From assembly GCF_014648275.1 (NCBI RefSeq), contig NZ_BMQU01000001.1, positions 1-64,000 of the forward strand: a stretch of DNA of 64,000 nt, read 5' to 3'. The translations under genes and the position numbers were made by a program. Position 1 is the first letter of the stretch. The number at the start of each line of letters is the position of its first letter. The notes below the pieces were generated by a model. It had not been told where the DNA came from. It ran no database searches and was given only the letters and a program-made list of their open reading frames with translations. Below, piece by piece: positions 21,545-46,007 of the stretch. Origin of the DNA: Pseudomonas laurentiana. GTDB taxonomy: Bacteria > Pseudomonadota > Gammaproteobacteria > Pseudomonadales > Pseudomonadaceae.

Positions 21545-22177
21545 TCAATCACGCTTGACCAACCCCGGTAGCTGGGCGATCAGTTTCTGGTTGTTGAAGG
21601 GCGCTCGAATGAAACCACGCTGCTTCCCGTCCGGCCCCAGCAGGGCCAGGTTGCCGCTGTGGTCAACTGTGTAGTTCGGCTTGCTGGTATCGGCTGGAAT
21701 AAACGGGATGCTCAGCGCGTTGGCCAGCTTCTGGGTCGTCTCCAGTGAGCCTGTCAGGCCACGGAACTCCGTATCGAAGTAACCCAGGTACTGCTTGAGC
21801 TGAGTCGGCGTGTCGCGGTTCGGATCAACACTGACCAGAACCACCTGCAAGTGCTCAGCCGCCTCTTTAGGCAATTCAGCCCTGACCTGGCGCAGTTGCG
21901 CCAAGGTGGTCGGGCAAACGTCCGGGCAGAAGGTGTAGCCGAAGAACAGCAATGACCACTTGCCTTTCAACTGGTCCATCGTCACAGGCTGGCCATTCTG
22001 GTCGGTCATTTCCAGCGCAGGCACGCTGCGGCTTTGCGGCAACAGAATGATCCCGGCATCAATCAGCTCGGCGGGGTTGGCCTGGCCTTTGGTGGTGATC
22101 ACCTTGTTGATGGTAAGCCCCAGTACAATGGCGACCAGGGCGACGAGGATAAAGACTGTTTTCTGGGTTCGGGTCAT
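21545..22177 (-). CDS. SCO1/SenC copper chaperone for cytochrome c oxidase
   Basis: A 210-residue membrane-anchored thioredoxin-fold protein. One N-terminal helix ([14 protein letters not shown]) anchors it, and the copper site CPDVC with a later His (TVDHSGN) is present. It loads copper into the CuA site of subunit II. The ATG overlaps the cyoE stop (ATGA), so it is coupled to cyoE and is the last gene of the oxidase assembly operon. Confidence 0.93.
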
Positions 22178-40914: not shown

Positions 40915-41811
40915 TCAGGCAATTTGCTGCGCCAATTCGGCACGCAGCCAACGGGCAAGCTGTTCGGCGCGCCCGTCGGCTGCGCGGCGTGGCACCCACA
41001 GCACCAGCGCGGCGTGGGTCTGGCAAAAACCCCACGGTGCAGCCAGACGTCCGGCGCGCAGGTCATCGGCTACCAGGGGCTGTGGCGCGATGGCAACACC
41101 GAGGCCGGCGACAGCCGCCTCCAGCAGGTAATACAGGTGCTCAAAATCCTGCCCATACCTCAGCGCCTGCGGGTCCAGACCTTGTTGCCGGGCCCAACTG
41201 GGCCACGCCTGTGGGCGCGATGTGGTCTGCAACAACGCTTCACCGAGCAAGGCGCTGGCCGGTGCCTGCTGCAAGCGCGCAAAGCCGCTGAAGTGCGGGC
41301 TCAGCACCGGACCGATACGCTCCTCGGCCAACACATGTACCTGCATGTCTGCAGGCCACGGCGGTTCAGCGAACACCAAGAGGGCATCCAGGCCTGGGCG
41401 GCGCGGATCAAGGTCACCTTCGCCCGCAGACAAGTGCAGCCGCAACTCCGGCAAATCGGCTTTCAACCGCCCCAGCCTCGGTATGAACCACCGCGCCAGC
41501 AGGCTACCTGAACAGCCCAGAACGAAGGGCGCCTCGGCACTGTCGCGGCTCAACTCGGCGCACACGGCCCGCAGGCGCTCGAACGCATCGCTACTGGCAT
41601 CCCGTAGCCGCACTCCGGCATCTGTGAGTTTAATGCCGCGCCCATCCTTGACGAACAAGCTCACGCCCAAGTGCTCTTCCAATACCTTGAGCTGACGGCT
41701 GACTGCCCCGTGGGTAACGTGTAGTTGCTCGGCAGCCTGGCTGACGCTGTTTAACCGGGCGGTGGCTTCAAACGCTCGCAAAGCGTTCAGGGGAGGCAAG
41801 TCGTGGGCCAT
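40915..41811 (-). CDS. trpI: TrpI, LysR-type activator of trpBA
   Basis: A 298-residue LysR regulator with an N-terminal winged helix ([39 protein letters not shown]) and an effector domain. TrpI activates trpBA with indoleglycerol phosphate. It is divergent from trpB, 111 bases apart, in the classical Pseudomonas arrangement, which is the main basis for naming it, since GcvA-type LysR proteins look similar. Confidence 0.93.
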
Positions 41812-41922: not shown

Positions 41923-43123
41923 ATGACCCAGACCCACTACCGCAGCGGCCCTGATGCCAACGGCCTGTTTGGCGATTTCGGCGGCCGTTACGTCGCGGAA
42001 ACCCTGATGCCACTGGTTCTTGACCTGGCCAAAGAATACGAAGCAGCAAAGGCCGACCCTGCTTTCATTGAAGAACTGGCCTACTTCCAGCGCGATTACA
42101 TCGGTCGCCCTAACCCGCTGTACTTCGCTGAACGCCTGAGCGAGCACTGCGGCGGTGCAAAGATCTACTTCAAGCGCGAAGAGCTCAACCACACCGGCGC
42201 GCACAAGATCAACAACTGCATCGGCCAGGTATTGCTGGCCAAGCGCATGGGCAAAAAGCGCCTGATCGCTGAAACCGGCGCCGGCATGCACGGCGTGGCC
42301 ACTGCCACCGTTGCCGCCCGCTTTGGCTTGCCTTGCGTGATCTACATGGGCGCCACTGACATCGAGCGTCAGCAGGCCAACGTGTTCCGCATGAAGCTGC
42401 TGGGCGCCGAGATCGTCCCCGTCACTGCCGGTACCGGTACGCTCAAGGACGCGATGAACGAAGCCCTGCGCGACTGGGTGACCAACGTTGATGAGACCTT
42501 CTACCTGATTGGTACTGTTGCAGGTCCGCACCCGTATCCCGCCATGGTTCGTGACTTCCAGTCGATCATCGGCAAGGAAACCCGCGAACAGATGAACGCC
42601 AAGGAAGGTCGCCTGCCTGACAGCCTGCGCCATGGGCCTGTTCCACGACTTCCTTGATGACGCCAGCGTGCAGATTATCGGCGTCGAAGCCGGTGGCCAT
42701 GGCGTTGACACCGACAAGCACGCTGCCAGCCTCAACGGCGGTGTACCGGGCGTACTGCACGGTAACCGTACCTACCTGCTGCAGGACGCAGACGGCCAGA
42801 TCACCGACGCCCACTCGATTTCTGCGGGTCTCGACTACCCGGGCATCGGTCCGGAACACGCTTACCTGCACGAAGTGAAGCGTGTCGAGTACGTCAGCAT
42901 CACCGATGATGAAGCCCTGGCCGCATTCCACACCACCTGCCGCCTGGAAGGCATCATCCCGGCGCTGGAGACCGCCCACGCCCTGGCTGAAGCGATCAAA
43001 CGCGCACCGACCCTGCCCAAGGATCACCTGATGGTGGTGTGCCTGTCCGGGCGCGGCGACAAAGACATGCAAACCGTGATGAACCATATGGCAGCGACCG
43101 CACAGCAGGAGAAGCAGGCATGA
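41923..43123 (+). pseudogene. trpB: Tryptophan synthase beta chain, frameshifted by an internal deletion
   Basis: Two open segments encode TrpB: residues 1-234 from 41923 (through GRLPDSL, then RHGPVPRLP and a stop at 42655-42657) and the C-terminal part in another frame from ATG 42632 ([14 protein letters not shown]) to 43123. The whole span is 1201 bases, not divisible by three. Intact Pseudomonas TrpB has VACVGGGSNA between SL and MGLFH; here that loop, which holds the PLP phosphate-binding glycines, is gone. About 26 bases are missing, which restores 408 residues. The PLP lysine ([10 protein letters not shown]95) is present. The product should be inactive. The last four bases overlap trpA. 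Confidence 0.93.
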
Positions 43124-43932
43124 GCCGTCTTGAACAACGTTTTGCCACGCTCAAGGCCGAAGGCCGTGCGGCACTGGTCACCTTCGTCACCGCCGGCGAC
43201 CCAGGCTACGATGCCTCACTGGCCATTCTCAAGGGTCTGCCAGCGGCTGGCGCCGACGTGATCGAACTGGGGATGCCCTTCACCGACCCAATGGCCGATG
43301 GCGTGGCAATCCAGCTGGCGACCTTGCGCGCCCTGGACGCCGGTCAGACCCTGGCGAAAACCCTGCAGATGGTGCGCGAGTTCCGTGTCGACGACAGCAC
43401 CACGCCCATTGTCTTGATGGGCTACTACAACCCGATCCACCGCTTTGGTGTCGAAGCCTTCGTCGCTGAAGCCAAGGAAGCCGGTGTCGATGGCTTGATC
43501 ATTGTTGATTTGCCGCCAGAGCATGATGCCGAACTGGCGACTCCGGCCCAATCCGCCGGGATCGACTTCATCCGCCTGACCACCCCGACCACCGACGATG
43601 CACGTCTGCCGCGCGTGCTGGAGCGCAGTTCGGGCTTTGTCTACTACGTCTCGGTTGCAGGCGTGACCGGTGCAGGCTCTGCCACCACCGATCAAGTCAG
43701 CAGCGCCATCGAGCGCCTGCGTCGGCATACCGACCTGCCGATCAGTGTTGGCTTTGGCATCCGCACACCGGAACAGGCCGCGGCCATCGCCCGACTGGCA
43801 GACGGCGTGGTCGTCGGCTCGGCACTGGTGGACAAGATTGCCCACGCAACCAACGCTGAACAGGCCGTAGGCGATGTGCTGGAGCTGTGCTCGGCGCTGG
43901 CCGAAGGTGTGCGGGCAGCACGCAAGGCGTAA
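43120..43932 (+). CDS. trpA: Tryptophan synthase alpha chain
   Basis: A 270-residue TIM-barrel enzyme cleaving indole-3-glycerol phosphate to indole and glyceraldehyde-3-phosphate. It has the catalytic Glu/Asp region ([14 protein letters not shown]) and phosphate loop ([12 protein letters not shown]), and looks intact. The ATG overlaps the trpB stop (ATGA), so translation is coupled to trpB; the upstream frameshift may reduce its expression. A strong terminator follows. Confidence 0.96.
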
Positions 43933-43985: not shown

Positions 43986-44321
43986 TCACGCTTGACTGAA
44001 GATCGACAGGTCGAGCGGTCGCACCGCCCCCATCCAGATCCCATGGTCACGATGATCGGCCAGTTCATCACCGGTCAGCGGGTGCAGGAACACCACCAGC
44101 CCATGGCGGTACAACGCCAGCCACGGCAGCACCACGCCGACCACTTCCGGGGCAAACGCCAACTGGCAACTCCAGTCGGGGTGTGGCCCTACTGGCTGCT
44201 GGTGCATCCGCCCCATCGTCACCGGAAACAACTGTGAAGCTTCCTCGCACAGCGCCCGGGCCTGTGCCATGGTGCTAGCGTCGTAATAGACGTGGGCGTG
44301 ATAGCCCTTGATTCTTTGCAC
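43986..44321 (-). CDS. DOPA 4,5-dioxygenase family protein
   Basis: A 111-residue single-domain protein of the extradiol DOPA-4,5-dioxygenase family. The family's metal-binding His and Asp appear in GYHAHVYYD, GPHPDWSCQ and LTGDELADHRDHGIWMG. The substrate in bacteria is unclear. The start is GTG (QRIKGYHAH follows), with GGAG five bases before it, giving the family's usual length. Confidence 0.85.
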   Translation of the reverse strand: MQRIKGYHAHVYYDASTMAQARALCEEASQLFPVTMGRMHQQPVGPHPDWSCQLAFAPEVVGVVLPWLALYRHGLVVFLHPLTGDELADHRDHGIWMGAVRPLDLSIFSQA

Positions 44322-44435
44322 ACGAACTCCTGACCCCAAAGAACTTTCACAACTATACGCCGCCCGCTCAGTGACGGCTTGCACCACCGCGCAGGAAATC
44401 GCACCCTGTGCACTGCTCAGCCGACCGAGAACCCC

Positions 44436-46007
44436 ATGGCCTGGCCCGACCGCCACACACTGCTGCCGTTCCTCTCCTGGCTACCTCGGCAGACCCGTGC
44501 CAGCATTGGCCGCGACCTGCACGTAGGCCTGAGCGGGGCGATCCTGGCCCTGCCACAATCCATTGCCTATGCCCTGATCGCAGGACTGCCCGCCGAGTAT
44601 GGCCTGTACGCAGCCATCGTGCCGGTGCTGATCGCGTGCCTGTGGGGTTCGTCCTGGCACCTGATCTGCGGCCCCACCGCCGCGATATCGGTCGTGCTGT
44701 ATGCCAGTGTCAGCCCTCTGGCCGTCGTGGGCAGCAGCGATTACATCACGCTTATCCTGCTGCTGACGTTCCTCGCCGGCGTGTTTCAGTGCGTGCTGGG
44801 CATGCTCCGGTTCGGTGCTCTGGTCAATTTTGTCTCCCAGCCCGTGGTACTCGGCTTCACCCTCGGCGCCGCCGTGGTTATTGCCTTGGGGCAACTCCCC
44901 AGCCTTCTGGGGCTGAACCTGCCCAGCCAGACAACGGCCTTGAAAGCCTTGCAGGGCCTGCTTGAGCATGCAAAAGACGCCGACCTGCGTTCACTCGTCC
45001 TAGGTACGGGTACGCTGCTGCTGGGCATTGCCCTGAGACAGCTGCGACCGCGTTGGCCGAGCCTGTTGATCAGCCTGGCCAGCGCCAGCCTGCTGAGCGG
45101 GTTATGGCCCTCCGCCTTCGGCCAGGTAGCACGGGTGCAGGGCTTCGTCGGCCAACTACCGCCCTTGAGTCCACTGCCACTATGGGACCTGGAACTGCTG
45201 CTGCGACTGCTGCCCGGTGCCGTAGCGGTGGGTATGCTCGGTCTGGTGACGAGCCTGTCGATTGCCCGTGCATTGTCAGCACGCTCGGAGCAACTGATCA
45301 ACGTCAATCAGGAAGTCCGCGCTCAGGGCCTGTCGAACATGGTCGGGGCCTTCTTCTCCGGTTACCTGTCCTCTGGCTCTTTCACCCGCTCGGGATTGAG
45401 CCTGGAAGCAGGTGCCCGCTCGCCGCTGGCCGGCGTGTTTTCCGCGCTGTGGGTCGCGCTGTTCGCCGTAACCGGTGCCACGCTGATCGCCCACATTCCG
45501 CTACCGGCCATGGCCGGCAGTATTCTGCTGATTTGCTGGGGGTTGGTTGACCACCAGGCGATTCGGGCACTGTTCCGCGTCAGCCGAGCGGAGTTCCTGG
45601 TGATGGCGGTGACCTGCGCCGCCACGCTGCTGCTGGAATTGCAGACCGCTATCTATGCGGGCGTATTGGTATCGCTGTTCTTCTACCTCAAGCGCACATC
45701 GCAGCCTAGCGTCCAGCACAGCCGGGAAGGTGATGAGGATATCCTGCGGGTCGGCGGGTCGATTTTCTTCGGCGCCAGCCATTACTTGCAGGTGCGCCTG
45801 CAACGCTGCCAAGGCCCGAAAGTGGTGATCGATGCGCGACAGATCAACTTCATCGACTATTCCGGCGTCGAGATGCTGCACCGTGAAGCCCGCCGCCTGC
45901 GTCGGCAGGATGGCAGCCTGACACTACGTCGCGCACGACCCCAGGTGATAGAAGAGTTGCACAAGCTGGAGGGGGCAGCGCACTGCCCCATTCATTTCGA
46001 GGATTAG
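44436..46007 (+). CDS. SulP family anion transporter with STAS domain
   Basis: A 523-residue inner-membrane protein with about 12-14 helices (start of core: [28 protein letters not shown]) followed by a STAS domain near residues 425-515 ([20 protein letters not shown]). SulP transporters carry sulfate, bicarbonate or other anions. The start follows a weak ribosome binding site (GAGAACCCC). It converges with aroE, overlapping its 3' end by four bases. Confidence 0.9.

Follow-up and report, generated by a model that had tools for sequence, protein, structure and literature searches.

Does the strain of Pseudomonas laurentiana whose draft genome carries this locus still make a working β chain of tryptophan synthase? 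The question is raised by trpB, whose TrpB-coding span in the window (the whole stretch of 64,000 nucleotides analysed here) takes up 1201 bases, 41923–43123, which the ORF list and the translations divide over two reading frames. The features concerned are these:

40915..41811, reverse strand: trpI, which encodes the LysR-type activator and is divergent from trpBA; an open frame of 298 aa, matched in 109/109 relatives over 95% or more of its length.
41923..42657, forward strand: N-terminal piece of trpB; 235 TrpB codons (41923–42627), 9 out-of-frame codons and a stop at 42655–42657, from the reading of frames.
42627..42628, forward strand: the join, between whose two positions 26 bases are missing that are present in 109/109 relatives, by alignment.
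42632..43123, forward strand: C-terminal piece of trpB, running from ATG to TGA in another frame, with the second TIGR00263 match at 42602–43087.
43120..43932, forward strand: trpA; an open frame of 270 aa, likewise matched over 95% or more of its length in 109/109 relatives.

We consider it probable that a very recent 26-base deletion has inactivated the strain's only trpB and that the strain is, by prediction, a tryptophan auxotroph; that the deletion is present in the cells, that activity is lost and that auxotrophy follows are each steps that we infer from the DNA.

The N-terminal piece is a 244-aa frame that follows TrpB up to GRLPDSL and then adds nine foreign residues and a stop; its matches to TrpB chains of known structure run as far as query residue 233–235. 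The C-terminal piece is a 163-aa frame whose ATG at 42632 sits inside the end of the first frame, and whose TGA at 43121–43123 overlaps the trpA start at 43120. Against the TIGR00263 profile, the former covers positions 1–222 of 385 with 362.3 bits and the latter positions 221–384 with 233.5 bits, both below the family cut-off of 392.45 bits, and no single frame covers the whole profile above that cut-off. The C-terminal tail of TrpB (43090–43123, forward strand) differs in length among relatives, and 9 bases (3 codons) at about 43096 are present in the window and absent from many of them.

The size and place of the gap were settled by comparison with 109 related trpB loci, namely 29 relatives from one list of 30 loci and 80 named loci, which amount to 104 distinct trpB sequences (five sequences of one list have an identical partner in the other); both lists are the best-scoring part of longer ones and no random sample. 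All 109 of these aligned, best-scoring relatives carry 26 more bases at the join. The gap is placed singly, after 42627, in 102 of them, and is shifted or split nearby, with the same total of 26, in the other 7. The highest DNA identity to the window's trpB within the set is 87.3%, and the set hence holds no near relative. By match span, all 147 matched relatives among 149 genomes searched are longer here than the window, by 17 bases or more; one of the 149 (G076) gave no trpB match. Where the alignment ends before the variable C-terminus (36 cases) the excess is 26 in 35 and 25 in one (G054), in which the TrpB frame is open and includes the loop; one genome (G123) is a span outlier at +32. 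Span differences other than 26 are mostly due to the C-terminal length variation in TrpB. The preliminary description had placed a frame break with the loss of about 26 bases near 42601..42660 and had called for an alignment to TrpB of related Pseudomonas; that alignment puts the loss at exactly 26 bases against every aligned relative. The frame change comes with this 26-base loss, in agreement with the earlier statement that there was no homopolymer slip.

What is missing is the PLP-phosphate-binding loop. Neither piece of trpB covers alignment columns 245–254 (V/I, A, C, I/V, G, G, G, S, N, A), which bears out the loss of this loop proposed in the preliminary description: the 26 bases correspond to eight loop codons and most of a ninth, while the tenth codon survives in the DNA, directly ahead of the ATG at 42632. 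Of the ten loop columns, eight are invariant in 109/109 relatives, seven of these fall within the missing stretch, and the invariant residues lost include the serine and asparagine that hold the PLP phosphate. When the N-terminal piece is aligned to the Salmonella-type TrpB chain 1k8x_B, the match ends at residue 227 of that chain, which puts the lost residues immediately after this point. In the part of PMC6608616 that we draw on, the PLP phosphate site comprises helix H9, the short loop before H9 and conserved His, Ser and Asn side chains; an excerpt of PMC9512447 assigns the backbone of Val231 and Gly232 to part of the monovalent-cation site.

On this basis, translation would leave the frame after residue 235 and stop nine codons on, giving a product without the PLP-phosphate loop and all residues beyond it. 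The downstream piece, if translated from the ATG at 42632, would also be without the loop, so that the pieces together could not form a working β chain. TrpB activity would be lost, indole would not be joined to serine, and tryptophan auxotrophy is predicted. That both pieces are translated and cooperate as a split or frameshifted TrpB is barely credible: the second piece does have a start of its own, an ATG within the tail of the first, and stays in the TrpB frame up to the trpA overlap, but with the loop missing from both, neither frameshifting nor complementation would restore PLP-phosphate binding, and no good ribosome-binding sequence was seen, by eye, close before the ATG at 42632. If ribosomes nevertheless restart there, translational coupling to trpA could survive through the overlap of the C-terminal piece's stop with the trpA start.

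The rest of trpB shows no trace of decay. None of the 253 columns that are invariant in the 109 relatives is changed across the two pieces in the window, so that the other conserved residues of a functional TrpB, including the region of the PLP lysine, are kept. The ratio of nonsynonymous to synonymous change is mid-range in both pieces when compared with 107 relatives treated alike (2 of the 109 were dropped, the start of the C piece not being as expected): the window's ratio is equalled or exceeded by 61/107 controls in the N-terminal piece and by 53/107 in the C-terminal piece. Decay of the remaining trpB is accordingly rejected, and with the invariant columns and these ratios speaking against it, an old pseudogene in a lineage that has long been auxotrophic is very improbable; the lesion would by itself be enough for auxotrophy in such a lineage, but the remaining trp genes are also all open. 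Rather, the lack of decay implies that the lesion is either very young, perhaps having arisen in culture, or absent from the cells.

Two smaller observations concern the same comparison. Residue 73 of TrpB (in the segment 41923–42627, forward strand) is serine in the window and threonine in 108/109 relatives, the sole departure among those non-invariant columns that are conserved in at least 97%. A hint of excess amino-acid change in the N-terminal piece, from five near relatives set against two control pairs, was removed by the 107-relative control.

Could another gene stand in for trpB? The draft genome of the strain (5.21 Mb, 223 contigs, completeness 99.99) was searched in several ways. 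PF00291 gives 12 matches, of which two are this locus and none is another TrpB; with the N-terminal piece as query, this locus is the sole strong match, followed by one with E 4.7e-4 at 35% over 92 residues; TIGR00263 returns the two trpB pieces and weak matches of 22.4 and 20.9 bits, none above the cut-off; and TIGR01415, the profile for TrpB2, returns 86.5, 43 and 19.6 bits against a cut-off of 518.85, the first two again being this locus. A draft in 223 contigs could be missing a second copy. The remaining trp genes read as open frames: trpC and trpF are open by family search and reading, and trpE, trpG and trpD are open as judged from their translations. The preliminary description had held that trpA and trpI are intact, which their open frames and near full-length matches confirm, and that the strain would be an auxotroph unless it had another trpB; the search for a second trpB that it proposed found none in the draft genome, nor a TrpB2, which supports auxotrophy as the expected result.

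How a deletion of this kind may have arisen can be read, in part, from the letters at the join. The missing stretch opens with G in 72 relatives and with A in 37, whereas the join is followed by C; it closes with AA in 109/109 relatives, whereas the join is preceded by G. Against all 109 relatives, the join shows zero bases of overlap, that is, no microhomology. Replication slippage leaves a single repeat copy at the join, and no such copy is found; the slippage between short GCCTG repeats suggested earlier is thus unsupported, and if one event was responsible, it would have been a homology-independent deletion. A path in two steps, in which 8 bases between two GCCTG copies are lost first and then 18, is a possibility that fits the letters when worked through by hand, and the aligner splits the gap as 8 + 18 in three diverged relatives. 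It is less simple, because it requires two events.

The alternative that deserves most attention is that the strain's trpB is intact and that 26 bases were dropped from the draft by an error of sequencing, assembly or consensus, which we regard as quite possible. An error would leave the rest of trpB and the whole pathway preserved, just as they are found, and the assembly is a draft. None of the 109 aligned relatives has a broken trpB, so that natural loss is rare within this set, and this too is as expected of an error. The same holds for the join sequence, which at up to 3 mismatches, a limit at which more diverged copies would be missed, occurs only in the strain's own genome among 399 genomes of the genus and in none of the 398 others.

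Several observations argue against an error. The join has no repeat that an assembler would collapse, and DNA folding gives no unusual hairpin there (z −0.01 for the region of an intact relative and −0.74 for the window). No other copy of the loop region turns up in the draft genome, a degenerate loop pattern allowing up to 2 mismatches being absent from the whole of it. The trpB site is interior to a contig of 425,953 bases. Furthermore, of the genes compared over 224 kb in total (the window and the adjoining 160 kb), trpB alone has its frame clearly broken. For this census four relatives were set against the window, with 65, 53, 19 and 16 ORFs retained, and one relative, G110, against the adjoining 160 kb (98 and 11 ORFs at 65% identity or more).

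Most of the census flags were shadow frames and upstream extensions, and those checked had an open frame there or on the opposite strand; one flagged shadow frame is antisense to what we take to be rpmH. Partial matches in the window lie near 44432–44563, near 44228–44332 and at the window's end, and one more, in the adjoining 160 kb, is cut by the slice edge. At two places in the latter region only about 60% of the relative's ORF is aligned, with no stops. At 21548–22177 (reverse strand) the window has an ORF of 210 aa, compared with 265 aa in G110, and the ends differ.

A recent deletion in the cells being the reading that we favour, the locus can be set beside two known systems. It shares with the trpI-trpBA arrangement of Pseudomonas, which the part of PMC9105386 used here documents in P. 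putida KT2440, the gene order, the divergent trpI and the sequence of both trpB pieces, and its TrpB is that of TIGR00263; it differs in a trpB that is 26 bases short and out of frame, with both pieces under the family cut-off. In laboratory ΔtrpB mutants of P. aeruginosa PAO1 the β chain is likewise lost and the rest of the pathway kept, and the deletion gives an auxotroph, according to the portion of PMC5915560 consulted; auxotrophy is thus the expected outcome here, where a small deletion is read in a draft genome and the strain is no constructed mutant. The same portion of PMC9105386 describes activation of trpBA by TrpI in the presence of indoleglycerol phosphate. This compound should build up without TrpB, and the broken trpBA operon may therefore be strongly expressed. 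The deletion is unnamed in the titles and abstract openings that searches of one open-access library returned, a statement that extends to those texts only.

Our best reading is a gene loss of an ordinary kind, a private and recent null allele of a housekeeping gene, or else an error in one draft. A larger proposal, that a free-living Pseudomonas has newly come to depend on tryptophan from its neighbours or a host with the pathway otherwise complete, and is caught at the first step of a metabolic dependency, appears unlikely. Either outcome leaves the knowledge of tryptophan synthase unchanged. If the 26 bases were lost to error, the public trpB sequence needs correcting; if the deletion is real, the strain would have to be given tryptophan in minimal medium, and the gap belongs in metabolic models that are based on the assembly.
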